From the IMG/VR virus record IMGVR_UViG_3300031227_000003, positions 1 to 40,506 of that record: a stretch of 40,506 nucleotides of DNA; one strand, 5' to 3'. Made by a program: the position numbers and the translations under genes. This document shows, one piece after another, positions 583 through 40,506 of this stretch (its first letter is position 1; every line of letters starts with the position of its first letter). The DNA comes from a virus. The notes beneath the pieces are model-generated. The model saw only the letters and a program-made list of their open reading frames with translations, was not told the DNA's origin and did no database searches.

Positions 583-864
583 ATGAATTGTAGAAATATG
601 ATGAAATTACAAAAAATATTTGGTTCAGGGCCTCAAATTAGAATCATGGAATTTTTACTTGATTTTGATGAATATCATGTGACAATAAGTGATATTGCAA
701 GAGAAACTAATGCTAGTAGAAACACAACAACTAAAATATTGAAAAATCTTTTTATTGAAGGATTGATAGAACAATCTAAAAGAAAAGTTCAAGGAAGGAG
801 AAAATATTTTATCCTAAATAATAAGAGTAAAATTGTAAAACTATTAAGACAAATGTGTATTTGA
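583..864 (+). CDS. winged helix-turn-helix transcriptional regulator, 93 aa
   Basis: The sequence is a compact winged HTH of the ArsR/MarR-like type common in archaea. MKLQKIFGSGPQIRIMEFLL forms helix 1, ISDIARETNASRNTTTKILK the recognition helix-turn-helix (residues about 44-63), and GLIEQSKRKVQGRRKYFILN the wing (residues about 69-88). A longer in-frame reading from 487 overlaps the upstream gene, so the ATG at 583, which follows AGAGGTG, is preferred. An 11-codon ORF at 551-586 lies just before it and may couple translation. It probably regulates viral promoters; the operator is unknown. Confidence 0.8.
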   Translation: MNCRNMMKLQKIFGSGPQIRIMEFLLDFDEYHVTISDIARETNASRNTTTKILKNLFIEGLIEQSKRKVQGRRKYFILNNKSKIVKLLRQMCI

Positions 865-867
865 AGT

Positions 868-980
868 AAATTATGAAGAGAATGCGAAAGGGTCAATGGA
901 TTGTTTAAACTGACGAGTTTATTAATGTTGACACAAAGGTCAGCACCTAACAAACTCTCGCAATATTCCTTTCATAAAAA
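868..980 (+). ncRNA. structured intergenic element, copy 1
   Basis: The basal stem is formed by 873-887 and 958-975: 15 pairs with one A-C mismatch and a 3-nt bulge on the 3' side (962-964). Three more pairs (890-892 with 955-957) and an internal CTGAC/GTCAG hairpin (910-914 with 939-943) follow. Copies at 1271-1362 and 2848-2939 keep the same stem with compensatory changes, including G892-C955 here for U-A in copy 2. The element lies between the winged-helix gene and a zinc-ribbon gene whose protein starts MKC. It matches no RNA family known to me and could be an RNA element or a protein-binding DNA hairpin. Confidence 0.55.
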
Positions 981-1000
981 TAATGAGAGGTTAAAAGAAA

Positions 1001-1240
1001 ATGAAATGTGATAAATGTAATTCAGAAAGAATCCTTAAATGTTATTGTCAAGGCAGAGACACGCATAGCTTATCTTTTAAGGGAAAAGATTATAGTGGAT
1101 ACATGAGAGAAGGATTAAATTTGTATGGGAACTATGGAGATGCAATGGAATTTAATCTTTGTATGGATTGTGGAAAAGTTCAAGGAAAATTCCCTGTAAC
1201 TGATGAAGTAATAGATGAAGCACTGAAAGAAGAAGAGTAA
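1001..1240 (+). CDS. zinc-ribbon protein, 79 aa
   Basis: Cysteine pairs CDKC at residues 3-6 and CMDC at about 54-57 make a zinc ribbon, with two further cysteines (CYC) at residues 14-16. The C-terminus is acidic (DEVIDEALKEEE). The ribosome site is GAGAGG. This is the first of three zinc-ribbon genes that directly follow a copy of the hairpin element, and all three proteins begin MKC. Function unknown; a small nucleic-acid- or protein-binding factor is the likeliest role. Confidence 0.7.
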   Translation: MKCDKCNSERILKCYCQGRDTHSLSFKGKDYSGYMREGLNLYGNYGDAMEFNLCMDCGKVQGKFPVTDEVIDEALKEEE

Positions 1241-1264
1241 CTGCGTAAAAATAAACAACAGTAA

Positions 1265-1399
1265 AGAACTAAATTATGAAGAGAATGCGAAAGATGTTTA
1301 TCGGTTGCTACCAAAAATGGTGTGTAAAAGATATATCCAATCTCGCAAGATTCCCTTCGTAAAAATAAACAATGAAATGTAAATGTAATGATTGTGGAA
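1265..1399 (+). repeat. 135-bp direct repeat, copy A
   Basis: Bases 1265-1399 match 2842-2976 at 134 of 135 positions without gaps; the single difference is T1336 versus C2913. The repeat contains the whole hairpin element and the first nine codons of a zinc-ribbon microprotein. The two copies are 1577 bp apart and bracket four small genes and the DNA methyltransferase, so homologous recombination between them would remove or duplicate that cassette. Confidence 0.9.
1271..1362 (+). ncRNA. structured intergenic element, copy 2
   Basis: The stem 1276-1290 with 1343-1360 repeats the architecture of copy 1: 15 pairs, the same A-C mismatch and a 3-nt bulge (1347-1349). It is continued by 1293-1295 pairing with 1340-1342 and an apical ACCA-AAAA-TGGT hairpin (1310-1321). 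Relative to copy 1, U-A becomes U-G at the base, G-U becomes G-C, and inner G-C becomes U-A, all keeping the pairing. A 28-codon ORF (1276-1362) runs through this copy, but copy 1 breaks it after 11 codons, so structure looks more conserved than peptide. Confidence 0.55.
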
Positions 1400-1443
1400 A
1401 GAAATGTAGAGATAAAGCAAAAGAACAAGGAACTTTGCTTTAA
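1372..1443 (+). CDS. truncated zinc-ribbon microprotein, 23 aa
   Basis: The ORF begins MKCKCNDCGKKC and ends after 23 residues. Its first nine codons are identical to those of the 29-aa protein at 2949, because both lie in the 135-bp repeat. Unlike that paralogue it lacks a second CxxC pair after the shared start and may be a degenerate copy. No good ribosome site is visible, so expression is uncertain. Confidence 0.4.
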   Translation: MKCKCNDCGKKCRDKAKEQGTLL

Positions 1444-1470
1444 AACTCGTAAATTGTGGGGACTAAGAAG

Positions 1471-1668
1471 ATGGAAATAGTACAATGTGAACGATGTCAT
1501 GATGCTGCAGAGTTAGATAAGTCATATCCAGTTAACAATAGTTGGTCAGGATATTTTAAGTTACCAAATAAGTGGAAAATGGTGAAGGGCCATGCATTAT
1601 GTCCAAATTGTCTAAAGGAACTTAATGCTGTTGTAAAGAAGTTTATAATATGTGGGGAGAACGAATGA
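1471..1668 (+). CDS. zinc-ribbon protein, 65 aa
   Basis: CERC at residues 6-9 and CPNC at about 44-47 form a treble-clef or ribbon zinc site. The segment between (SWSGYFKLPNKWKMVKGHALCP) resembles small zinc-binding phage proteins of unknown function. The ATG at 1471 is preferred; a GTG at 1456 would add five residues. Its stop overlaps the next start (ATGA). No function is assigned. Confidence 0.65.
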   Translation: MEIVQCERCHDAAELDKSYPVNNSWSGYFKLPNKWKMVKGHALCPNCLKELNAVVKKFIICGENE

Positions 1669-1787
1669 TAAATGAAATAGATATACGTTTGGCTTTAATG
1701 GGTACATCTATACTATTACTTGCAATTGTAATGTTATACCAAAACAAAAAAATTAGGAAATTAGAAGAATATGCACAATTGAAGTAG
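1665..1787 (+). CDS. single-pass membrane microprotein, 40 aa
   Basis: The ORF starts in an ATGA overlap with the preceding zinc-ribbon gene. Residues about 8-25 (LALMGTSILLLAIVMLYQ) form one transmembrane helix, followed by a basic then acidic tail (KKIRKLEEYAQ). Several such microproteins are scattered through this genome. Function unknown. Confidence 0.55.
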   Translation: MINEIDIRLALMGTSILLLAIVMLYQNKKIRKLEEYAQLK

Positions 1788-1803
1788 GAGATGAAGAAAA
1801 ATA

Positions 1804-1902
1804 ATGGCAAGAAAAGAAATAAAATATTGGTGTCCTCATAATTGTGGACACAATGAACAAGAAGATTTTACTGAATGTCCTAGATGTGGTGAAAAATGTT
1901 AG
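1804..1902 (+). CDS. zinc-ribbon microprotein, 32 aa
   Basis: Nearly the whole protein is one zinc ribbon: CPHNC at residues 10-14 and CPRCGEKC at 25-32. A GGAG ribosome site lies upstream at 1787-1790. The last codons overlap the start of the methyltransferase gene by 7 nt, so the two are probably co-translated and the protein could be an accessory of the methyltransferase; that link is inferred from position only. Confidence 0.55.
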   Translation: MARKEIKYWCPHNCGHNEQEDFTECPRCGEKC

Positions 1903-2843
1903 AAATAAACAAAATACATAACATGGACTGTCTTGAAGGAATGAAGCAATTAGAAGATAATTCAGTTGATTTGGTAGTGATAGACCCACCATATAACATA
2001 TCAATAGATGAATGGGACAAATTTGATGATAAAAAATATTTAATTTGGATGGAGTCTGTTTTTGATGAAATAATAAGAGTAACAAAAAGGACATCAGGAA
2101 TTTATGTATTTGGTGATTTTAGATTTATCGCTGATATAAAAGTTATGTTAAACAAAAAAGAAGTTAAATTAACATCATGGATAATCTGGGACAAAGGTTC
2201 AAAAGAACAAAATGCAATAAGAAGTTATGCTAATGTTACAGAACATTTATTATTTTTCACAAAACCAAAAAGTCAAATTAATAATCCTATTTGGGAATAC
2301 CTAAATGAAGCAAGGAAAAACAAAAATTTATCATTATCTGATATAAATAAAAATTTAGGGTGGGCATCGACAGGAGGAGGTTGTGCTTCATGTTATATGG
2401 GAAACAAAAAAGATGTTATGATTCCTTCTAAAAATCATTATGATAAATTAAAGAAAATTCTTGAATTAAATAAAGATTATAGAGATTTTAAGTCTCTAAT
2501 TTATACATTTAACCATGAATCAATAAGGATTAAGAGGAATCCAAGAGACAAAAGAAAATTTAGTTATGACAAACAAATAATGCCTAATGTTTGGTATTAC
2601 AACAATAAATTAGAAATGACTAAATACAATCACCCAACAGTTAAACCTATCGAAATGATAAGAACAATCATCAAAGCTTCAAGTAATGAGGGTGACTTAG
2701 TTTTAGATTGCTTTATGGGAAGTGGAACTACTGCTGTTGCCTGTCATCAACTAAGCAGAAATTTTATTGGGTTTGAATTGAATACAGATTACATAAAAAT
2801 TGCTGAAGAAAGATTAACTCAAAAAGGGTTAACTTCGTACTAG
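1896..2843 (+). CDS. DNA methyltransferase, beta-class N6-adenine/N4-cytosine type
   Basis: This 315-residue protein transfers a methyl group from S-adenosylmethionine to DNA. The catalytic motif IV, DPPYNI, is near residue 30 and the SAM-binding motif I, DCFMGSGTT, near residue 272, the order of the beta class (CcrM/HinfI-like, PF01555). DPPYN favours adenine-N6. The middle (residues about 135-200) carries an HTH-like insertion seen in many phage methyltransferases and probably reads the target. HPTVKP near residue 248 is the usual motif X region. No restriction enzyme partner is nearby, so it is an orphan, probably masking viral DNA. The gene lies between the two 135-bp repeats. Confidence 0.92.
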   Translation: MLEINKIHNMDCLEGMKQLEDNSVDLVVIDPPYNISIDEWDKFDDKKYLIWMESVFDEIIRVTKRTSGIYVFGDFRFIADIKVMLNKKEVKLTSWIIWDKGSKEQNAIRSYANVTEHLLFFTKPKSQINNPIWEYLNEARKNKNLSLSDINKNLGWASTGGGCASCYMGNKKDVMIPSKNHYDKLKKILELNKDYRDFKSLIYTFNHESIRIKRNPRDKRKFSYDKQIMPNVWYYNNKLEMTKYNHPTVKPIEMIRTIIKASSNEGDLVLDCFMGSGTTAVACHQLSRNFIGFELNTDYIKIAEERLTQKGLTSY

Positions 2844-2976
2844 AACTAAATTATGAAGAGAATGCGAAAGATGTTTATCGGTTGCTACCAAAAATGGTGT
2901 GTAAAAGATATACCCAATCTCGCAAGATTCCCTTCGTAAAAATAAACAATGAAATGTAAATGTAATGATTGTGGAA
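2842..2976 (+). repeat. 135-bp direct repeat, copy B
   Basis: This is the second copy of 1265-1399, with one substitution (C2913). It starts at the last two bases of the methyltransferase gene and ends inside the next zinc-ribbon gene. The near identity implies a recent duplication or continuing gene conversion. Confidence 0.9.
2848..2939 (+). ncRNA. structured intergenic element, copy 3
   Basis: The stem is 2853-2867 with 2920-2937 and has the same mismatch, bulge and apical hairpin as copy 2. The single base difference from copy 2 (C2913) lies in the loop, not in the basal stem. It precedes the 29-aa zinc-ribbon gene at 2949. Confidence 0.55.
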
Positions 2977-3038
2977 CTGAATTTGAGTATGATTACAAAA
3001 TAAGTATTTGTAATAAATGTTTATTAAAATACAAATGA
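2949..3038 (+). CDS. zinc-ribbon microprotein, 29 aa
   Basis: CKCNDC at residues 3-8 and CNKC at 21-24 form a minimal zinc ribbon. The N-terminal nine residues are shared with the ORF at 1372 through the 135-bp repeat, whereas the rest is unique and keeps the second cysteine pair, so this is the intact paralogue. It directly follows copy 3 of the hairpin element. Confidence 0.5.
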   Translation: MKCKCNDCGTEFEYDYKISICNKCLLKYK

Positions 3039-3050
3039 GAGGAAAATAAA

Positions 3051-3230
3051 ATTATAAATAAATTAAAAGAATTTGCTTTGGAATGTTATTCAAATTCCGC
3101 ATTTAGAAAATACAAAGAATCAAATAAAAATGAAATTGATTTTGAATTACTACAATTAAAGGTAAAAATGGCTAAATTAATGAGAAGGGAATTAATATTA
3201 GATTTGATTTTAGAAACTTCGCATAACTAA
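3051..3230 (+). CDS. 59-codon ORF without a standard start codon
   Basis: An open frame runs from the TGA at 3036 to the TAA at 3228 and encodes an amphipathic helical protein (INKLKEFALE...MAKLMRRELILDLILET). No ATG, GTG or TTG stands at the proper distance from the GAGAGG ribosome site at about 3037-3042. The codon there is ATT (3051); a TTG at 3078 is possible but far. Either a rare ATT/ATA start is used or the start was lost by mutation. Codon use looks like the neighbours. Function unknown. Confidence 0.4.
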   Translation: MINKLKEFALECYSNSAFRKYKESNKNEIDFELLQLKVKMAKLMRRELILDLILETSHN

Positions 3231-3521: not shown

Positions 3522-3729
3522 TAAATTATACTCAACTTGCAAGGACGAGACAGGACTTGGAACCAACAAACTGTATTAAATTGGTTATCTACTGGATGCC
3601 GTGTTATGCCAGTATAATCCGCACAATACTAATAAATCACACTAGCTTAACTCCGGACAACGAAAGCAAGATTTTTTAACATCAGTTTCGACCACTTTTG
3701 TTATCATCTCTTCTTACTGTCTTGAGGAG
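3522..3729. other. convergent intergenic region with inverted repeats
   Basis: This is where the two operons meet. It holds three inverted repeats: AACCAA/TTGGTT (3561-3566 with 3581-3586), ACTGG/CCAGT (3591-3595 with 3609-3613) and CTTAACTCC/GGAGTTAAG (3646-3654 with 3726-3734). A T6 run at 3672-3677 could end rightward transcription. No coding frame or tRNA fits. Its likeliest role is bidirectional termination. Confidence 0.45.
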
Positions 3730-3864
3730 TTAAGTTATCCTTTGCCTACACCAATGACAGAACATCGCAGTGCATCCATCAAATTTAAAGAAATGAGATT
3801 TGCATTTACAATAATCACAAGTTAACTTAATTCGATACTTCTTAACTGCCGGTGAGATTTCCAT
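3730..3864 (-). CDS. zinc-finger microprotein, 44 aa
   Basis: The translation contains CDYCKCKSH at residues 16-24 and GCTAMFCHWC at about 30-39, a zinc-binding knuckle pair. The gene starts one base after the stop of the upstream ORF, with no ribosome site of its own, suggesting re-initiation. It is the last gene of the 32-kb leftward block, and its stop codon lies in the arm of a 9-bp inverted repeat. Confidence 0.5.
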   Translation of the reverse strand: MEISPAVKKYRIKLTCDYCKCKSHFFKFDGCTAMFCHWCRQRIT

Positions 3865-9840: not shown

Positions 9841-10743
9841 TTATATGAAACTTCTCCCAGTTACGTTGGCCCAAGTTATGCTACTTTCTGGCATCACAGG
9901 CATCGTTGGGTCAAATACAGTTCCTGCCAATGGATTGATTTGGGAAAAACCACCAGCTGAGCTTTGACTGTTTGCTGCGTGAACAGCATCAGGAAATGCT
10001 GTACTCATTTGTCCAGTTGTTGTTGTAGCTACAAATTCACTTGGAGTATGAAGAGTTGGAGTAATTCCTCCCACATTACCTCCAGTTACAAAATTCATTA
10101 TATCTATTATTGCATTAGGGATTGATTTTATTGCATTAGTTGCTATAGCTACTCCATCTCCAAATAAATTCATTAAAGTTGTATCTTCACCAAACGTATC
10201 AATAAGATTGCCGAATGAATCTCTTAATTCAATAGTTCCATCATCCAATTCAACTAATCCATCAGCAGCATCTAATCCTTTTTCTTTTAATTCTTTCATT
10301 GCTCGTTCTCTTCTTATTTCTGGAGGTCTCTTATACCCTGGACCTTCATCCCCCGGTATTACTGCTACCCCTGCTAATAATCCTCCAATACCTAAAAATC
10401 TTAAAAAACCCATTAATCCCATTCCTGCAGAAGCACCACCGGCAGCTCCTGCCGCACCCGCTGCCCCTGCTGCCCCTGCCCCTGCTGCCCCTGCCCCTGC
10501 TGCCCCTGCTGCCCCAACTGCTCCTACTCCAACAGCTGCCCCCACTGCCGTAGTCACAACATCAACAATTACATCCCCAAACTTACCCTTTAGAAATTTA
10601 GCAGTAAGACTTGTCGCCCTCATACTTTTTAACTGTTCTAAACGAAATGAACGTTGTTCAGAATTTGAAAAAGGGCTTCCACTACTCCCTTTGCCATTTC
10701 CAGTAACTAATTCAAGTTTTGCTTTTATAGTTGGTGTAGCCAT
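9841..10743 (-). CDS. short tape-measure protein candidate with Gly-Ala zipper, 300 aa
   Basis: It follows the two chaperone-like genes and precedes the tail-tip genes, the fixed place of the tape measure. At 300 residues it is short for the family, implying a short tail of roughly 45 nm by the usual 0.15 nm per residue rule. Residues about 60-110 are an alternating Ala/Gly run (GAAGAAGAGAAGAG type) running into GLMGFLRFLGIGGLLAGVAV, a glycine-zipper membrane segment suited to DNA ejection. The rest is mixed, with an N-terminal basic helix (RLEQLKSMRATSLTAKFLKG). The tract makes a GC-rich island in AT-rich DNA. Confidence 0.6.
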   Translation of the reverse strand: MATPTIKAKLELVTGNGKGSSGSPFSNSEQRSFRLEQLKSMRATSLTAKFLKGKFGDVIVDVVTTAVGAAVGVGAVGAAGAAGAGAAGAGAAGAAGAAGAAGGASAGMGLMGFLRFLGIGGLLAGVAVIPGDEGPGYKRPPEIRRERAMKELKEKGLDAADGLVELDDGTIELRDSFGNLIDTFGEDTTLMNLFGDGVAIATNAIKSIPNAIIDIMNFVTGGNVGGITPTLHTPSEFVATTTTGQMSTAFPDAVHAANSQSSAGGFSQINPLAGTVFDPTMPVMPESSITWANVTGRSFI

Positions 10744-13139: not shown

Positions 13140-13162
13140 ATTAAGGTATTTAAATAATATTA
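13140..13162 (-). promoter_or_regulatory. late promoter element, copy 1
   Basis: Reading leftwards, the sequence is a TATTTAAATA box followed by CCTTAAT and preceded by AATATTA. The same 20-plus bases recur at 24084-24107 and 27560-27586. Each copy overlaps the stop codon of the gene before it and lies 40-80 nt before a gene start, here the tail terminator at 13083. The box itself is palindromic, so the direction is inferred from gene context. Confidence 0.65.
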
Positions 13163-13588
13163 TTTAGAAGCTGATTTAACTGCCTTATTAATAATCTGAG
13201 CCATCTTATTTTGATTCCATAATACTTTACGAAAAAATCCGAATGGTTGAACACCCTTTGGTAATTTACTTGCTGCCTTCCTACTAATATTCTTCTTCTT
13301 AGGATCAGGAGTTGAAGGGAAAGAATCTTTACCATATTGGTCAAAGTAAGCAAATGAACCATACTCTAAGTAAGGAGCATGTTTTGCAGTATTCCCAATA
13401 ACTAAATTGTTACCTTCAACATCAACAGTTAAACTTCCTCGCAATTCACCAGTATCAACTAACCGCATGTTATCAATTTGTTTCCTGATTTCATTCTCAG
13501 CTTGAAAACCTATTGCGTAAAGTAACTTAGAAGAAAACTCTTTCCAATTTGTAATTTCATACTTCTGTCCATTATGGTTGATGATCAT
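13160..13588 (-). CDS. HK97 gp10-like neck/tail-completion protein, 142 aa
   Basis: The hallmark of the gp10 family is clear: MRLVDTGELRGSLTVDVEGN (residues about 41-60) then AKHAPYLEYG (near 68-77). The C-terminal part is basic. Members join the head-tail connector to the tail. It overlaps the upstream head-closure gene by ATGA-type coupling, and its stop lies in the late promoter copy. Confidence 0.75.
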   Translation of the reverse strand: MIINHNGQKYEITNWKEFSSKLLYAIGFQAENEIRKQIDNMRLVDTGELRGSLTVDVEGNNLVIGNTAKHAPYLEYGSFAYFDQYGKDSFPSTPDPKKKNISRKAASKLPKGVQPFGFFRKVLWNQNKMAQIINKAVKSASK

Positions 13589-20927: not shown

Positions 20928-21173
20928 TTATCTTCCCCACAAAGTTAATGTACACATTTTATCAGTTTGTCCATTCCAATTAATTGTTGCTGTTGCCCCA
21001 CTAAATGTAACATTAATGTGGGAATCAGTATTATAATTAGATTTGACACTTGCTGCTTGAATGGTTGTATATTTTCTTGTTAAGTACGTTTCACCATCAG
21101 ATGCAGTTAATACTACAACTTCTTCTGTTGGATCAGGTGATTCAATGACTCTTAATACTGTTGCCGCTGCCAT
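20928..21173 (-). CDS. decoration-like small beta protein, pair B copy 2, 81 aa
   Basis: It is a paralogue of the next gene upstream (21174-21419): both are 81 residues and share the pattern T.RKF/Y.TIQAA, then INVTFSG.ATINW and a CTL.LWG end. The sequence is nearly all beta. Two tandem copies just behind the capsid gene suggest a protein binding the capsid surface in many copies. No known decoration family is recognised. Confidence 0.6.
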   Translation of the reverse strand: MAAATVLRVIESPDPTEEVVVLTASDGETYLTRKYTTIQAASVKSNYNTDSHINVTFSGATATINWNGQTDKMCTLTLWGR

Positions 21174-21419
21174 CTATTCACCCCACAAGACTAATGTACA
21201 ATCACTCTTTGCTACTGAAGCCCAATTTACAGTTGCCACTGTTCCACTAAAAGTTACGTTAATGTGTGCATCTGAATCAGCATTCCCTGTTACTTCTGCT
21301 GCTTGAATAGTATTAAATTTTCTACTTGTATATGTATCCTCATCGTCAACGTTTAATCTAACAACTTCCTTGTTAGTGTTCATCGTTTCAACGACATATT
21401 CTACTGTTCCACTTGCCAT
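21174..21419 (-). CDS. decoration-like small beta protein, pair B copy 1, 81 aa
   Basis: Same length and layout as its neighbour at 20928, with SRKFNTIQAAEVTGN, HINVTFSGTVATVNW and a CTLVLWGE end. About half the residues look identical by eye. The ribosome site is a strong AGGAGG. The two genes are adjacent without a gap, so the duplication probably arose in tandem. Confidence 0.6.
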   Translation of the reverse strand: MASGTVEYVVETMNTNKEVVRLNVDDEDTYTSRKFNTIQAAEVTGNADSDAHINVTFSGTVATVNWASVAKSDCTLVLWGE

Positions 21420-21446
21420 GGTTTTTTCCTCCTATTTGTTAATAAA

Positions 21447-21464
21447 AATAAAAATATTTTTATT
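21447..21464. terminator. 18-bp perfect AT palindrome between decoration-like genes
   Basis: AATAAAAATATTTTTATT is identical on both strands and overlaps the stop codon of the 83-aa gene at 21460. As RNA it makes a hairpin followed by a short U run, so it may be a partial terminator or a processing site that sets the dose of pair B relative to pair A. Confidence 0.4.
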
Positions 21465-21711
21465 GATTTTCACTTATTGCTTGAAAAAATACAGTGTTAC
21501 TAGATTCTGCCAACGTTACAGTTCCAGATGTAGTACTAAAAGTTACTGTTCCTGAACCTGCTACAGCATAAGTAATTCCATTGATTTTGTTACCCATGAT
21601 ATGTTGAATACCAATATTATCTCCTGTTGCTGCTCCAGTTACTTCAACTGAACCCAACCAAAAGTCTCCTAAAGGAGAGGCTACAACTGTTCCGCTTGTG
21701 TGATCTGCCAT
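21460..21711 (-). CDS. decoration-like small beta protein, pair A copy 2, 83 aa
   Basis: The first 20 residues (MADHTSGTVVASPLGDFWLG) are identical to those of the gene at 21764, and the later part shares GNKINGI/GRKIGGI, TFSTTSGTVTL and VFFQA. It is all beta and has no cysteine. Duplicated small proteins encoded right after a capsid gene are candidates for capsid cementing or decoration proteins. Confidence 0.65.
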   Translation of the reverse strand: MADHTSGTVVASPLGDFWLGSVEVTGAATGDNIGIQHIMGNKINGITYAVAGSGTVTFSTTSGTVTLAESSNTVFFQAISENQ

Positions 21712-21763
21712 TTTTTATTTACCTCTTAATTGTAAAAAATATAAAAAATAAAAAAATATATTT
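21712..21763 (-). terminator. T-run intergenic segment after decoration gene A1
   Basis: Read leftwards this gap has successive runs of seven, six and six T, then a GAGG ribosome site. Oligo-T runs terminate archaeal transcription, so this may be a leaky terminator that lowers expression of the genes downstream of the first decoration gene. Confidence 0.45.
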
Positions 21764-22015
21764 TTATTGTGCTTTACTCAATGCTTGAAAAAAGACAAAG
21801 TTACTTGTTCCGGATAATGTTACGGTTCCAGATGTAGTACTGAAAGAGCAAGTTCCTGAATTAGCATTTGCAAATGCAATTCCCCCAATCTTTCTACCCA
21901 TAATAGCTTGAATACCTACATTATCAGCATCTTGTCCATTACTTAATTCTATTGTACCTAACCAAAAGTCACCTAATGGAGAAGCAACAACAGTTCCACT
22001 TGTGTGATCTGCCAT
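21764..22015 (-). CDS. decoration-like small beta protein, pair A copy 1, 83 aa
   Basis: It is the first gene after the major capsid protein and carries a strong AGGAGG site. It matches the 21460 gene over its full 83 residues with an identical 20-residue start. The middle differs (LSNGQDADNVGIQAIMGRK) and one cysteine is present (GTCSFS). Likely a capsid surface or cement protein; the assignment rests on position, size and duplication. Confidence 0.65.
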   Translation of the reverse strand: MADHTSGTVVASPLGDFWLGTIELSNGQDADNVGIQAIMGRKIGGIAFANANSGTCSFSTTSGTVTLSGTSNFVFFQALSKAQ

Positions 22016-24083: not shown

Positions 24084-24107
24084 ATTAAGGTATTTAAATA
24101 ATATTTA
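24084..24107 (-). promoter_or_regulatory. late promoter element, copy 2
   Basis: The same TATTTAAATA core with CCTTAAT downstream as at 13140-13162 and 27560-27586. It sits directly after the stop codon of the broken HNH gene and about 95 nt before the protease start. It would drive protease, capsid and decoration genes. Confidence 0.65.
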
Positions 24108-24108
24108 T

Positions 24109-24549
24109 TTAGTTAGGTAGAAATCGACCATCAGAACCAATGTTCCTTTTGGTGTAATGTAATTTTAAATGTTCACTTGCTGTCATTAATTCTAAATTGT
24201 CAATATTATTATTTAATGGATTAAAATCTTTATGGTGAATGTTAAAACCTTTAGGTACTTTTCTTTTATGGTACCTTTCCCATATATAATGATGTTCTAA
24301 ATACCACTCTACCTTAGGTAGATAAATTAACCAATATCCTCTTTTCCCAATCATTCTTTTTGATTTCCCTTCATTAAATCTCTTTAATGTAATATTCCTT
24401 TTTGCTTCATTGGCAGATTTAGTTATCTCAAATTTATCTCTTGTTCCATCACAATATTGTTTTAGAATTTATTTTCTTAATTTTTCTTTAGTTTTTTCAC
24501 TATGTGTTTTTCCTTTATTCCAAGGTATTTGTCCTTTTTTAAAAGTCAT
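24109..24549 (-). pseudogene. HNH homing endonuclease interrupted by in-frame TAA
   Basis: The frame opens at 24549 with a NUMOD3-like start (GQIPWNKGKTHSEKTKEKLR, residues 7-25). It is stopped by TAA at 24469-24471 (codon 27) and continues open for 119 codons to the true stop at 24109. The second part holds the HNH core, NIHHKDFNPLNNNIDNLEL followed by HLKLH. A single AAA-to-TAA change would explain it. An ATG at 24354 could still give an 81-aa HNH fragment. It lies between the gpF-like and protease genes and has its own TATA box. Confidence 0.8.
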
Positions 24550-27559: not shown

Positions 27560-27586
27560 ATTAAGGTATTTAAATAATATTATTTT
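27560..27586 (-). promoter_or_regulatory. late promoter element, copy 3
   Basis: TATTTAAATA core with CCTTAAT downstream, as in the copies at 13140 and 24084. It overlaps the stop codon of the 64-aa gene and lies about 90 nt before the portal start codon. Confidence 0.65.
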
Positions 27587-34278: not shown

Positions 34279-36231
34279 CTATAATTTCCTTGCAACTCCT
34301 GCAGGGTTTTCCATGAACCATCCTCTAGCTTTCATTTTATCAATCAATCTGTCACTTAGGTTTAGTTCTTTTTTCATAATCTCAATTTTGACAGATCCTT
34401 TTTTCATCAAATAATCAACAACAATTTCTTCAGTAATTGCAATATTTTTCTGGGTTACTGGGTTACTGGAGTTACTGGAGTTACTGGGACCTAGCGGTTT
34501 TTTCTGAAAATCTTCAACAAAACTTATTTCATCGCTTTTTTCAATAATATTACTTTTTTCCATTATCTTTACTCTCCCCAGTAATCCAGTAACTTTAGTA
34601 ACCGAGTAACCTTTTGAGCTTAAATTTTCTAAAACCTCTTCTTCAAAGATATATCTAGAAAATATATTTTCCATTATATCCTTTTTCATTAGAAGTGCTA
34701 CTTTTGTCCTTCCTGATATTTTCATTCGGTGAAAATCAAGTCCCATACCCCTTAGTAACTTTGCTATTTTATGTGATGTTACTGGGTATTGGAAGTGTAT
34801 ATTCTTCTGATCTAATTGTTCCTTTATGTCACCAGGACTTGGTGACTCCCATCCATTAGCTACCATTTCAGCCAGTACATTAATGATAATTCCATCGAAT
34901 GATGATGCTCTTTCTTCAATTAATGATTCTTGATAATGTCTTAAATTTTCTTTAAATTTTTCAATTTCTTCTTTTCTATCAGCAAATAAACTAACAAATG
35001 ATCTATTAACTTGTCTTAACCTTGGTTCAAATTCACTCAAATCAATTTTCATTCCTGCTTTTGGATCAATTTTATGATAGTTTCTTAATCTCCATAGAAG
35101 TAATTTGTTCCTTAATATTCTTGTTTCTTCATAAAATTCATCAAGTAATGTGTCTGGTATGTCTGTTCTGTGCGTTTGAGTCATAATTGTTGTCATGCAC
35201 CTTGCTTCAGTTGCTTTATCTTCAAATCTTCTTCTTGTTGTGATAACTTTAGGGCAAAATACTTCAAAGAAATCAATTTGGTTTGGGTCATTTTTATCAC
35301 ATCTTCCTACTGCCCTCCCTCTTTCATACCCACAATTCATAATTTTGATGAATGTGTTAGTTTCTTCACTTTTATCCTGATCCCCTTCATCAATAATGAG
35401 CGTTCCTTTCCATTTGTCAATTAACCTAAATATTACTGCTGGCGTTAATGCTCCTGCAACCACCATTGGTTTGTAATGTAATAATCCAATTGTGTCTAAA
35501 AATCTACTTTTTCCTGTTCCTGTGTCTCCTAAAGCTCTAATATAATTTAATGTGTTGAACCTTTGATAAACCCAACTTTGAAGAATGTTATAAAATGCTA
35601 ATTGTTCATAATCTTCTGATACATCCAAATATTTGTTAATGTGTTTCTTGATATCTTTTTCTAAATCTTCATAAGTTCCATACTCTCCTGGTTCTTTTGG
35701 AAGGTGAACAACACTTTTATGTAATTCTTGTCCATAATGTGGCCGGTGGATTATTCCCCCTACTTCAAAATCTTTAACTTGTTCCCATTCACCACCATTT
35801 CTATCATATTTAATAAAATAACTAAATCCATTGTTGAAACCTTGTTCATAAATATATTTATCATCAATATGAAGACTTGTATAAACCACATCTTCCTTAT
35901 CATTTTTTTGTTTGACTTCTTTTTCTTGCCTTTGTTCTCTTAAATTCATAATTGCATACTTTTCAAAATTCTCCCAACAATATTCATCAAATCCTTCTCC
36001 TTTTAGAAATTCTAAACAATTTTTAATATCGGTAACAATTTGTGCTGGTTCCATGCTTCCAGTAAGGAATCCTTGTATTGTTTCAAATTGTAATTCAGAA
36101 TATTTACTTTTCCCATCCATCATTGCATTAAATGATGGATATTTCATATATTTTTTGAAAATTTTGTATAATTTTAATAATCCTGAAGTATTAACTCCAT
36201 TTTTAAGTAAAACATTATCACCAGTATTCAT
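34279..36231 (-). CDS. AAA+ ATPase replication protein (helicase/initiator), 650 aa
   Basis: Walker A is GDTGTGKS (near residue 237) and Walker B GTLIIDEGD (near 275), with an Arg-rich sensor-like stretch (VITTRRRFEDKATEARCMTT) near 330. The N-terminal 200 residues are an uncharacterised accessory region. Residues about 590-650 form a winged helix (VDYLMKKGSVKIEIMKKELN). The layout suits a replicative helicase or initiator of an archaeal virus. The DNA for residues about 541-592 holds an origin-like iteron array, and the corresponding protein stretch (SNSSNSSNPVT) is low-complexity, so DNA function may dictate it. Confidence 0.75.
   Translation of the reverse strand: MNTGDNVLLKNGVNTSGLLKLYKIFKKYMKYPSFNAMMDGKSKYSELQFETIQGFLTGSMEPAQIVTDIKNCLEFLKGEGFDEYCWENFEKYAIMNLREQRQEKEVKQKNDKEDVVYTSLHIDDKYIYEQGFNNGFSYFIKYDRNGGEWEQVKDFEVGGIIHRPHYGQELHKSVVHLPKEPGEYGTYEDLEKDIKKHINKYLDVSEDYEQLAFYNILQSWVYQRFNTLNYIRALGDTGTGKSRFLDTIGLLHYKPMVVAGALTPAVIFRLIDKWKGTLIIDEGDQDKSEETNTFIKIMNCGYERGRAVGRCDKNDPNQIDFFEVFCPKVITTRRRFEDKATEARCMTTIMTQTHRTDIPDTLLDEFYEETRILRNKLLLWRLRNYHKIDPKAGMKIDLSEFEPRLRQVNRSFVSLFADRKEEIEKFKENLRHYQESLIEERASSFDGIIINVLAEMVANGWESPSPGDIKEQLDQKNIHFQYPVTSHKIAKLLRGMGLDFHRMKISGRTKVALLMKKDIMENIFSRYIFEEEVLENLSSKGYSVTKVTGLLGRVKIMEKSNIIEKSDEISFVEDFQKKPLGPSNSSNSSNPVTQKNIAITEEIVVDYLMKKGSVKIEIMKKELNLSDRLIDKMKARGWFMENPAGVARKL
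34454..34610. other. candidate replication origin: 4+4 inverted iterons
   Basis: Four direct GTTACTGG units lie at 34454, 34462, 34471 and 34480. Four units in reverse orientation (CCAGTAAC or one- to two-base variants) lie at 34578, 34586, 34595 and 34603. Spacing is 8 or 9 bp in both sets. They flank about 90 AT-rich bases with several T6 runs. This resembles initiator-binding iterons next to a melting zone, inside the replication gene as lambda ori lies inside gene O. Confidence 0.6.
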
Positions 36232-36523: not shown

Positions 36524-36573
36524 TGTTTCCTTTCTGGCTATATACTGCCTAGTAGTCACACAAAAACGAAACA

Positions 36574-36581: not shown

Positions 36582-36637
36582 TAAGTTATACTTATACACC
36601 ATTATCACCTTAACTGGTGTCAAGGAGGTCTAGAAAA

Positions 36638-36706
36638 ATGAAACAAACAAATTATGTGAATAAGGTAGGGATGAGATTTTGTGTCCCAACTAATAATTAT
36701 GAATAA
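36638..36706 (+). CDS. 22-aa leader microprotein
   Basis: The first ATG after the rightward promoter follows AAGGAGG at the right spacing and gives MKQTNYVNKVGMRFCVPTNN plus two residues. The strong ribosome site argues that it is translated. It may be a leader peptide. About 12 nt past its stop, TTATGAAGAGAGTGTGAGG (36718-36736) resembles the 5' arm of the hairpin elements, without a matching 3' arm. Confidence 0.45.
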   Translation: MKQTNYVNKVGMRFCVPTNNYE

Positions 36707-36743
36707 TGGGTGGAAGCTTATGAAGAGAGTGTGAGGCAATAAA

Positions 36744-37343
36744 ATGACAAAATTGTATGAGGATATTGATGATATTTTTATAAGTAAAAATAAACATAAA
36801 AGAAGTACATTAAAAAAAGAAAATGAACATCAAAAAGAAACTCCAATAACAATTGGATACCTAAACAATGCTTTATTTAAGCTAATAAAAAGAGTAAATT
36901 TAATTGATGAAGAACAGGAACAAATACAACAGACTATGTTTAAACATATTGATTCTGTTTTAAATCATCCCAATTTTATTACTTCATTTAATTCAAAAAT
37001 CATACAACTAATTACAAGGGAAATTCAAGTTCAAATAGTTAATAATGATGTATTTAATGATGTTGATTATAAAATAAGAAGTTGTATTAATAACAATTTG
37101 CCAACAATAATTAGAGAAGCAACTGATACCACTGTCAAAAACCTTGTTAAGAAATATGCAGCAGAACTTAGAGCAGCTAAGGACCTTTGTTATTCTGTTG
37201 ATTCAACAATTAAACATTGTTTGATGGAAAAACCAATATCTCTTCAATTTGAGAATAGAATTTTGATAGAATTAAGAAAAGAAATGAAAATAAGAACTGC
37301 GGCAACTTTAGGTAATAACAAAAAAATAGAGGTGTTACAATGA
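36744..37343 (+). CDS. hypothetical helical protein, 199 aa
   Basis: The protein is mostly helical and Lys/Asn/Ile-rich, with a charged N-terminal 35 residues (DIDDIFISKNKHKRSTLKKE) and long helices afterwards (KIIQLITREIQVQIVNNDVF, TVKNLVKKYAAELRAAKDLC). No family is recognised. It is the first larger gene of the early operon, so a host-takeover or regulatory role is possible. The ribosome site is GTGAGG. Confidence 0.65.
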   Translation: MTKLYEDIDDIFISKNKHKRSTLKKENEHQKETPITIGYLNNALFKLIKRVNLIDEEQEQIQQTMFKHIDSVLNHPNFITSFNSKIIQLITREIQVQIVNNDVFNDVDYKIRSCINNNLPTIIREATDTTVKNLVKKYAAELRAAKDLCYSVDSTIKHCLMEKPISLQFENRILIELRKEMKIRTAATLGNNKKIEVLQ

Positions 37344-37945: not shown

Positions 37946-38311
37946 ATGAAGAAAAAAGGATTTATTGATGTTGAATTATTAGCAATAGTAGGTATAATAA
38001 TGGTAGCAATTGTAACATTTTCATTACTATTTTTGTTAGTACAACCATTCCCATTATTTAAGTATGGAGAAGGAAGCACATATGGTGTCATGACAACTGT
38101 TGAAGAAGGAATATTTTTTGATAGTGTTTGGATTAGGGCTGAATATGAAAGTAGTCAAACTGATCAATATTGTTTGGAAGAAGATAGTCCAATTAAAGAA
38201 ATAATGAAATGGTACATACAAAGCAAGCAAAGAGTTGAATTAAAATATAAGAAACATTTTTTGGGTAGCTGTGGAGATTTAGTCATAGGAGTTAACCCAA
38301 TCATGGGATAA
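37946..38311 (+). CDS. membrane-anchored protein with prepilin-like N-terminus, 121 aa
   Basis: The start MKKKGFIDVELLAIVGIIMV looks like a type IV prepilin: basic leader, Gly-Phe cleavage point and Glu at +5, then a hydrophobic helix to residue 33. The outer domain (YGVMTTVEEGIFFDSVWIRA) resembles phage membrane proteins near superinfection-immunity genes. Two cysteines near the ends may form a disulphide. It could interfere with pili or with entry of other viruses; this is inference. A strong GGAGG is upstream. Confidence 0.55.
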   Translation: MKKKGFIDVELLAIVGIIMVAIVTFSLLFLLVQPFPLFKYGEGSTYGVMTTVEEGIFFDSVWIRAEYESSQTDQYCLEEDSPIKEIMKWYIQSKQRVELKYKKHFLGSCGDLVIGVNPIMG

Positions 38312-38486
38312 GATTCGCACAAAATCAAAAAAGCGAACCACTAAACAGCACTTGTCTTAGTTTTGACATACGATACAGGCAGTTAAAACAACCAAACTCT
38401 CAAAGTTACCATCGGATACACTGGTATGCCCTACCCGTTTGGTTGGCTGGGTGAGAGTTGTATAAACTACATAAGGTGAATGAAAA
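38312..38486 (+). ncRNA. structured 5' leader before the YopX-like gene
   Basis: The 175-bp gap has no ORF. It contains a TTCGC/GCGAA stem (38314-38318 with 38333-38337) and two long complementary pairs that share three bases: 38389-38397 with 38437-38445 (9 bp), and 38395-38402 with 38452-38459 (8 bp). They could form a pseudoknot or two alternative folds. The second pair ends 14 nt before the AGGTGA ribosome site (38474-38479), so it could control translation. Confidence 0.5.
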
Positions 38487-39216: not shown

Positions 39217-39636
39217 ATGGAAATAAATAAATTAACAATAGGTGAAGCAAAAAAGAAACTTGAAGAACACAAAACAGCATACGAAGAATTGTCTTCCTTA
39301 TTTGGAAAAGAAGTATGCTTACAACAATCAGCAAAAAGTAAATTCATCGGAAAGTATGTAATTGTTAGAACATACTCTGCTGGAGTATTTGCAGGAACTC
39401 TTGTAAGTAAAAATAAACAAGAAGGAATTATGAAAAACACAAGAAGATTGTGGTACTGGGACGGAGCTGCAAGTTTATCTGAATTGGCGATGAAAGGAGT
39501 AGCCAAACCTAACAAATGTAAATTTCCCTGTGAAGTACCAGAAATTGAATTGAACAGAATCATTGAAGTAATACCTTGTACAAAAGAAGCAGAAGATAGT
39601 ATCAAAAAAGTAGAGGAGTGGACAAAAAATGAGTAA
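39217..39636 (+). CDS. DUF6948-like phage protein, 139 aa
   Basis: The core GKYVIVRTYSAGVFAGTL (residues about 46-63), then RRLWYWDGAASLSELAMKG and IIEVIPCTKEAED, is a pattern I know from a conserved phage family (DUF6948 as recalled). Its function is unknown. In many phages the same gene is followed by a Gly/Ser/Asp repeat protein, as here. The ribosome site is AGAGG. Confidence 0.75.
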   Translation: MEINKLTIGEAKKKLEEHKTAYEELSSLFGKEVCLQQSAKSKFIGKYVIVRTYSAGVFAGTLVSKNKQEGIMKNTRRLWYWDGAASLSELAMKGVAKPNKCKFPCEVPEIELNRIIEVIPCTKEAEDSIKKVEEWTKNE

Positions 39637-39901
39637 AAGCGATGGCTCTGGCTATGGCTTTGGCAATGGCTCTGGCTCTGGCTTTGGCTCTGGCTCTGGC
39701 TTTGGCGATGGCTCTGGCTCTGGCTTTGGCGATGGCTCTGGCTATGGCTTTGGTGATGGCTATGGCTTTGGCGATGGCTCTGGCTTTGGCGATGGCTCTG
39801 GCTATGGCTTTGGCGATGGCGATGGCTCTGGCTTTGGCGATGGCGATGGCTCTGGCACTGGCAATGGCTCTGGCAATGGCTCTGGCAATGGAGATGGATA
39901 A
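39629..39901 (+). CDS. Gly/Ser/Asp/Phe repeat protein, 90 aa
   Basis: After MSKSDGS the whole protein is built from GFGDGSG/GYGFGDG repeats, with no Lys, Arg or hydrophobic core beyond Phe and Tyr. It must be disordered or phase-separating. The start overlaps the upstream gene by 8 nt and follows GAGGAG. The DNA is a run of near 6-bp GGCTNT/GGCGAT units, so two other frames are also open; this frame is chosen by start context. Similar proteins follow DUF6948-like genes in other phages. Confidence 0.7.
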   Translation: MSKSDGSGYGFGNGSGSGFGSGSGFGDGSGSGFGDGSGYGFGDGYGFGDGSGFGDGSGYGFGDGDGSGFGDGDGSGTGNGSGNGSGNGDG

Positions 39902-40354: not shown

Positions 40355-40483
40355 ATGTTAACTGAAATACAAGCAGGATGGATGATTAAAGCATTAATAT
40401 TCTTTTTTTGTGTTATGGTATCATATTTTATCGTAACGGGTAAATACCATTCAGTTAAGACTGAAAAGGTGACTAAAAAATGA
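40355..40483 (+). CDS. single-pass membrane microprotein crossing the join, 42 aa
   Basis: MLTEIQAGWMIKALIFFFCV then MVSYFIVTGKYHSVKTEKVT: one hydrophobic helix at residues 9-27 followed by a basic tail. It starts one base after the upstream stop. The same gene continues at the left end of the window, where its stop is at 102-104. The end overlaps the 65-aa membrane gene by ATGA, and that gene's first nine codons reappear at 40480-40506. Confidence 0.6.
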   Translation: MLTEIQAGWMIKALIFFFCVMVSYFIVTGKYHSVKTEKVTKK

Positions 40484-40506
40484 AACAAGAAATAGAAAGA
40501 TATGGA
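40380..40506. repeat. terminal direct repeat, right copy
   Basis: Identical to bases 1-127. It shows that the window closes on itself; the unique genome is bases 1-40379. Confidence 0.95.

Follow-up and report, generated by a model that had tools for sequence, protein, structure and literature searches.

Stem-loops, Folding and Duplication

The 40.5-kb virus record IMGVR_UViG_3300031227_000003 of IMG/VR, analysed here over its whole length of 40,506 nucleotides (nt; the window), has three related stem-loops, called c1, c2 and c3, in gaps of a run of plus-strand genes, each followed by an open reading frame (ORF) that begins with MKC. The first-pass annotation of this DNA described the elements as covarying hairpins and proposed a new structured regulator, possibly bound by the adjacent zinc-ribbon protein. 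The stem-loops are present at the claimed places, within the ranges first given, and have a common stem that contains a single A-C mismatch and, on its 3' strand, a bulge of 3 nt, although the pairs outside the inner helix number 16 rather than the 15 reported.

871..977, plus strand: element c1, with an outer stem, an A-C mismatch, a 3-nt bulge AAU (962-964), a 4-base-pair (bp) helix GCGA 884-887 / UCGC 958-961 and a 70-nt loop
1274..1362, plus strand: element c2, with a stem of the c1 type, a bulge AAG (1347-1349), a helix GCGA 1287-1290 / UCGC 1343-1346 and a 52-nt loop
2851..2939, plus strand: element c3, as c2, with a bulge AAG (2924-2926), a helix GCGA 2864-2867 / UCGC 2920-2923 and a 52-nt loop

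Against dinucleotide shuffles, the fold energies have z scores of -3.46, -4.84 and -5.24 for c1, c2 and c3; of 200 shuffles per element, 1, 0 and 0 fold as well, and in a second test none of 500 does so for c1 or for c2. The GCGA/UCGC helix has pair probabilities of 0.68-0.99 across the three elements, and a short bulge comes after each of its strands, AA(G) in one case and AAU or AAG in the other, the outer bulge lying on the 3' strand; the U-A pair beside the helix can slide to give 5 bp, in which case the bulge becomes AUA or AGA. The inner 3-bp helix has a pairing probability of 0.07 in c1, 0.42-0.48 in c2 and 0.65-0.70 in c3. Folding energy favours the plus strand for c2, c3 and a possible fourth element, e4, described below, and the minus strand for c1 (-28.0 for plus, -31.5 for minus), while the stem pairs that vary (U-G in c2 and c3, G-U in c1) are standard only when read as plus strand.

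The elements c2 and c3 lie in a near-identical 135-nt duplicate with one base difference, which extends into the following ORF, taking in its ATG and first codons, so that there are only about two independent copies. The loops of c2 and c3, which had been called different, are therefore not different.

1265..1399, plus strand: duplicated block with c2 and the first codons of a 23-amino-acid (aa) ORF, a 99% repeat of 2842-2976 with a single difference at 1336
2842..2976, plus strand: duplicated block with c3 and the first codons of a 29-aa ORF, a repeat of 1265-1399
1241..1258, plus strand: close match to the element's 3' end, directly upstream of c2

An 18-nt stretch, CTKCGTAAAAATAAACAA, is near-identical at 1241-1258, 1355-1372 and 2932-2949, that is, at the 3' ends of c2 and c3 and upstream of c2. 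Because it recurs just upstream, c2 lies between two copies of a direct repeat, an arrangement that is perhaps the trace of an insertion or tandem duplication. Between c1 and c2/c3 the arms share 24 of 25 nt in the 5' segment and 25 of 28 nt in the 3' segment, and the c1 loop (65 nt compared with 47) is unalignable, since 625 of 1000 shuffles align as well. Conserved arms flanking a free loop are the best evidence that the stem is important.

Covariation and the Case for Structure

Covariation was measured on a three-row alignment (about two independent rows) with 16 pairs and 48 cells. All 48 cells are paired in the 16-pair stem, and the 5' arm is identical in c1, c2 and c3. The report that every stem change keeps pairing holds for two one-sided changes, U-A to U-G and G-U to G-C, but none of the 16 pairs has a two-sided change. 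The two other reported changes, G-U to A-U and the double change G892-C955 to U1295-A1340, both fall in the 3-bp inner helix, which is scarcely populated in c1 and has a competing hairpin there. No measure of covariation rises above shuffles; there are 2 further pair types, and the shuffles have the same count. As 17 of the 32 possible transitions in the c1 stem preserve the pair, two transitions would both be pairing-neutral by chance with a probability of about 28%. Sliding the stem partners drops pairing to 36-54%, a contrast that partly reflects the way the structure was chosen. Three aligned copies can thus seem to covary if two of the three arose by recent duplication, and caution is needed with such alignments.

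The case for structure rests on energy and conserved arms, not on covariation, because the stem lacks changes on both sides and the inner helix is weak in c1. The repeated hairpin is real and probably acts at the RNA level: of the proposed covarying structured regulator, a plus-strand structured RNA is supported (kept arms, diverged loop, folds beating shuffles, pairs standard only on the plus strand, position in gaps) and the word "covarying" is not. Rfam has no family at its gathering threshold in the window. The Rfam matches MALAT1, snoU25 and SNORD59 are judged to be chance, MALAT1 and snoU25 being the only ones at E <=10 in 800-3050 and far under threshold. K-turn and H/ACA readings lack their needed features when judged by eye against their definitions. 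Hairpin-stimulated readthrough of stop codons was set aside, as another stop stands in frame a few codons past c1 and c3.

Search for Relatives

A covariance model built from the copies, as the first-pass annotation had suggested, has three strong matches each in the window and in one other contig (G001), and elsewhere only weak matches or none. This contig is near-identical to the window (99.8-100% over two long aligned pieces), and within the collections searched the comparison therefore draws on what amounts to a single virus. After c1-c3, the strongest remaining match in the window has E 0.39. The search set of 46 records, many of them fragments, consisted of 45 of 71 terminase loci and the record L005, which has a homologue of the protein encoded after c1; besides G001, two have weak matches and 43 have none. 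The stronger of the two (G046, E 0.11) has 3 non-standard pairs and is judged to be chance, and the other (G039, E 5.39) aligns to the loop part of the model only. The remaining 26 terminase loci have no match at E <=1, and 7 further records have none at E <=10.

A loose arm-to-arm pattern matched 95 viral stretches, and the outer-stem sequence was present as well only in the window and G001 among 100 loci; exact 5'-arm and degenerate 3'-arm patterns in viral contigs are found in G001 only, and three genome contigs that match the 20-nt 5' arm have no model match. BLAST of the 135-nt block returned 12 Aeromonas phage records, in which the match is limited to 26 nt of the zinc-ribbon coding part, and nothing from plasmids.

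The Virus, the Gene Run and the Probable Host

The record is probably complete, either circular or terminally redundant, because its ends have an exact 127-nt direct repeat (1-127 = 40380-40506). Plus-strand ORFs are continuous from about 36638 across the circle junction to 3521, a run that we infer to be a single transcript. Of 24 gaps between its listed ORFs, 20 are <=42 nt; the four longer ones are 175 nt (before 38487) and the gaps of 136, 131 and 105 nt that hold c1, c2 and c3. The 175-nt gap (38312-38486) has no significant fold and no Rfam match. Structured RNAs considered at 38311-38480 (z -0.67 and -0.40) and at 36600-36745 (z 0.45) are no more stable than shuffles.

The virus encodes a terminase, a portal, an SU10-like capsid and an ERCC4 nuclease, and from its sequence it is probably a tailed virus with an archaeal host. 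The ERCC4 nuclease matches 4 records among phages, which are two Halorubrum tailed viruses, and the capsid likewise matches 4, which are two Haloarcula tailed viruses. For a winged helix-turn-helix protein, the top-scoring models are Sta1 and Lrs14, both under their cut-offs, and sequences resembling a B recognition element (BRE) and TATA box are present in both directions, near 36529 (minus strand) and 36570 (plus strand, spotted by eye). The terminase counts against a simple archaeal picture: it matches 22 named records, 11 of which, including the best matches, are phages of Bacteroidota genera, and no named archaeal virus is among the best 20 of the 22. No tRNA genes were found in the window.

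Elsewhere in the record, a 26-nt sequence, ATTAAGGTATTTAAATAATATTATTT, occurs three times (13140-13165, 24084-24109 and 27560-27585; 92-100% identity) upstream of minus-strand genes, and may be a viral promoter because its complement has a TATA-like TTTAAATA. At 39629-39901 there is an ORF of short Gly/Ser/Asp-rich repeats (12- and 18-nt spacing) with a second frame also open, a repeat array at which G001 aligns repeatedly. Four small consecutive ORFs of 81-83 aa lie at 20928-22015, two of them within a tandem duplication (73-84% identity).

The MKC ORFs

The three ORFs that follow the elements are listed below.

1001..1240, plus strand: 79-aa Cys-rich protein (MKCDKCNSE...), with a Shine-Dalgarno at 985-990, a homologue in L005 and no family match
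1372..1443, plus strand: 23-aa ORF (MKCKCNDCGKKC...), without a Shine-Dalgarno, a doubtful gene
2949..3038, plus strand: 29-aa ORF (MKCKCNDCGTEF...CNKC...), without a Shine-Dalgarno

An MKC ORF does stand after each element, with 23, 9 and 9 nt from stem end to ATG, but the starts after c2 and c3 lie in the duplicated block and belong to ORFs of just 23 and 29 aa. Three independent zinc-ribbon associations are not supported, since the ORF start sits inside the duplicated block and the association counts as one case, then copied. The Shine-Dalgarno score is -7.0 for the 79-aa gene and +0.5 for the two short ORFs; among 22 other listed starts it is -1.1 at 40355 and -5.5 to -12.1 for the remainder (three start positions in this listing are off by a few nt). 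The 79-aa protein is 44-45% identical to its homologue in L005, another virus contig, where the covariance model of the element has no match, and its only solved-structure match is a weak one to mS85 (E 0.014).

A Possible RNA-processing Site

The reading favoured here, tentatively, is that c1-c3 are structure-specific RNA-processing sites of the bulge-helix-bulge (BHB) kind. The host tRNA-splicing endonuclease would cut once per bulge beside the 4-bp GCGA/UCGC helix, the variable loop would be released as a piece of 74 nt from c1 and of 56 nt from c2 or c3, and the two flanks would be re-ligated or left cut, with the gap between two cistrons shortened or the cistrons separated. We infer transcription through the elements, the cleavage sites, the enzyme, the ligation and the effect on expression. 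The putative excised stretches are placed from the fold on the assumption that cleavage falls between the second and third bases of each 3-nt bulge.

890..963, plus strand: putative excised stretch of c1, 74 nt, placed from the fold
1293..1348, plus strand: putative excised stretch of c2, 56 nt, placed likewise
2870..2925, plus strand: putative excised stretch of c3, 56 nt, placed likewise

A coding role for these stretches was considered and set aside, as the frame yields just a 15- or 16-codon ORF by eye.

BHB-like processing is suggested by folds that beat shuffles, a bulge after each helix strand, the probable archaeal host and a precedent in the gene HVO_1309. That the arms are kept while the loop aligns like shuffles fits a reading where only the splice-site helix matters. 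The outer bulge is on the 3' strand, which is the orientation of archaeal introns. A scan of the window for the architecture, designed after c1-c3 had been seen (outer stem, 3-nt bulge on the 3' strand, 4-bp helix, loop of 20-110 nt), has as its best four plus-strand matches c1-c3, with scores of 33-34, and e4, which is the top match with 36.

3643..3737, plus strand: possible fourth element e4, post hoc, unrelated in sequence, with a 12-bp outer stem, a bulge UGA (3723-3725), a helix GGAC 3655-3658 / GUCU 3719-3722 and a 60-nt loop

The score of e4 is reached in 3 of 60 dinucleotide shuffles (mean 0.05 per strand) and those of c1-c3 are reached 0.1-0.23 times per strand; the e4 fold has z -4.7, with 0 of 500 shuffles as good. 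It is located in a noncoding gap past the plus-strand gene run, where its end overlaps by 8 nt with the end of a Cys-rich ORF on the minus strand (3730-3864), and its unrelated sequence with a like layout would suit an enzyme that recognises structure. When eight further bulge settings were scanned on each strand, the strong matches, among those listed, are mostly near 34450-34471, with four isolated ones (apart from those at 10106, 13560 and 16555), and c1-c3 are recovered as a minus-strand reading. In nine other records, 18 of the 19 matches listed lie wholly or largely within ORFs of >=60 aa, and one noncoding match (in G008) scores 33.

According to two sources, the BHB motif is defined as a 4-bp helix between two 3-nt bulges, and some archaeal splicing enzymes tolerate other bulge lengths while the Haloferax enzyme is strict (PMC4090602, PMC7714728). 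BHB processing beyond tRNA and rRNA is described in one of these for very few mRNAs, cbf5 and HVO_1309, and the 5' untranslated region (UTR) of HVO_1309 holds a BHB intron whose processing is confirmed in vitro (PMC7714728). Compared with the canonical hBHBh' form, c1-c3 have the 4-bp central helix (GCGA/UCGC) and, in predicted folds, the 3-nt 3' bulge (AAU or AAG); past the bulges, the outer helix has at least 2 Watson-Crick pairs, and the inner helix is present only with a 2-nt bulge and is weak in c1.

Several observations weigh against BHB processing. The 5' bulge is predicted to be 2 nt (or a 3x1 loop) instead of 3 nt: with a 2-nt bulge the first inner pair has probabilities of 0.07, 0.48 and 0.70 in c1, c2 and c3, and with a strict 3-nt bulge the inner helix has 0.00 in all three. 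As they miss the strict definition of the 5' bulge, c1-c3 are termed BHB-like and not members. In c1 the inner helix is barely formed, and the long stem has a competing fold; with longer 3' context this stem forms in only about half of the ensemble, most of its pair probabilities being 0.35-0.51, and another fold ranks above it. No benefit of splicing is evident for loops in untranslated gaps, and the virus has no PF01974 match that would indicate a splicing endonuclease of its own. The fourth element was found post hoc by a scan modelled on c1-c3; in a longer stretch its fold has z -2.54 with 3 of 200 shuffles as good, and if loops of 3-400 nt are allowed a score of 36 is expected 0.125 times per strand (24 shuffles). 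In the nine-record scan, three matches in the GC-richer G004, all or nearly all coding, score above e4 (42, 37 and 37).

A broader proposal, which we consider improbable, is that the untranslated gaps of an early operon in this virus hold a number of excisable BHB-like elements, of which two or more have unrelated sequences, and that the host tRNA-splicing endonuclease processes the polycistronic mRNA and perhaps yields small circular RNAs. If true, this would be a virus exploiting archaeal RNA splicing for gene expression. Of the papers surveyed on the BHB motif in connection with archaeal viruses, introns or viral genomes, none mentions, in its title or the opening of its abstract, a BHB site in the mRNA of an archaeal virus.

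Other Explanations

Translational control is nearly as likely as RNA processing, which makes it a real if still doubtful competitor. The folded stem could shorten the path from stop to start for re-initiation at c2 and c3, which precede ORFs without a Shine-Dalgarno, or the pyrimidine-rich 3' arm of c1 could be a switchable anti-Shine-Dalgarno. The stems of c1 and c3 start 6 and 7 nt past the stop codon of the upstream gene, but c2 begins 33 nt past its upstream stop. Over 8 bp, the 3' arm of c1 can pair with the 79-aa gene's Shine-Dalgarno; the predicted hairpin has a population similar to that of the long stem.

968..990, plus strand: alternative c1 hairpin, 3' arm CCUUUCAU (968-975) with AUGAGAGG (983-990), covering the Shine-Dalgarno; predicted fold

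This pairing is, however, unspecific, as the c1 arm pairs equally or better with the starts at 3051 and 3261. In longer context the Shine-Dalgarno of c1 is covered with or without a ribosome masking the 5' arm, so that no switch is predicted, and the translational mechanism would have to differ between c1 and c2/c3.

It is unlikely that the element is only a repeat at the DNA level, in which an inverted-repeat unit carrying a zinc-ribbon ORF start was inserted or duplicated and then spread through recombination without any function as RNA. The 135-nt duplicate of c2 and c3, which takes in the ORF start codons, is what such a repeat would look like, as are the direct repeat of about 16 nt on both sides of c2 and the methyltransferase gene bracketed by c2 and c3. 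A neutral repeat nevertheless leaves unexplained why c1 and c2 keep the arms and lose the loop, and no copies are present elsewhere in the window or in the other records searched, apart from the near-identical G001; the varying stem pairs also favour a plus-strand RNA, though the minus strand of c1 folds better. Least probable of all, and very doubtful, is the earlier suggestion that the neighbouring zinc-ribbon protein binds the element as a regulator, in autogenous control. Cys-rich ORFs do stand after the elements, but as a single unit that was copied; the record with the homologue of the 79-aa protein has no match to the element's model, and the 79-aa protein itself has no family match and, among solved structures, only the weak one to mS85.

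Comparison with Known Systems

RNase III processes intercistronic hairpins of T7-like phages, which likewise contain bulges and separate the cistrons of an early operon; the difference is that the host here is probably archaeal, and to our knowledge RNase III is generally lacking in archaea. Leader switches that cover a Shine-Dalgarno resemble c1 in its two exclusive folds, one of them over the Shine-Dalgarno, and differ in that the elements have no Rfam family match, c2 and c3 have no Shine-Dalgarno, and masking the 5' arm of c1 leaves the predicted access unchanged. Archaeal BHB sites, as described in PMC4090602 and PMC7714728, include tRNA introns, rRNA processing stems, the cbf5 mRNA and the HVO_1309 5' UTR intron. 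Compared with these, c1-c3, as putative cleavage sites, have a 5' bulge predicted at 2 nt and are repeated in viral intercistronic gaps. They are alike in the 4-bp helix, the 3-nt bulge on the 3' strand, the short bulge on the 5' strand, the strong outer helix, the loop free in sequence and length, and the probable archaeal host, and the BHB intron of HVO_1309 (PMC7714728) likewise lies outside coding sequence.

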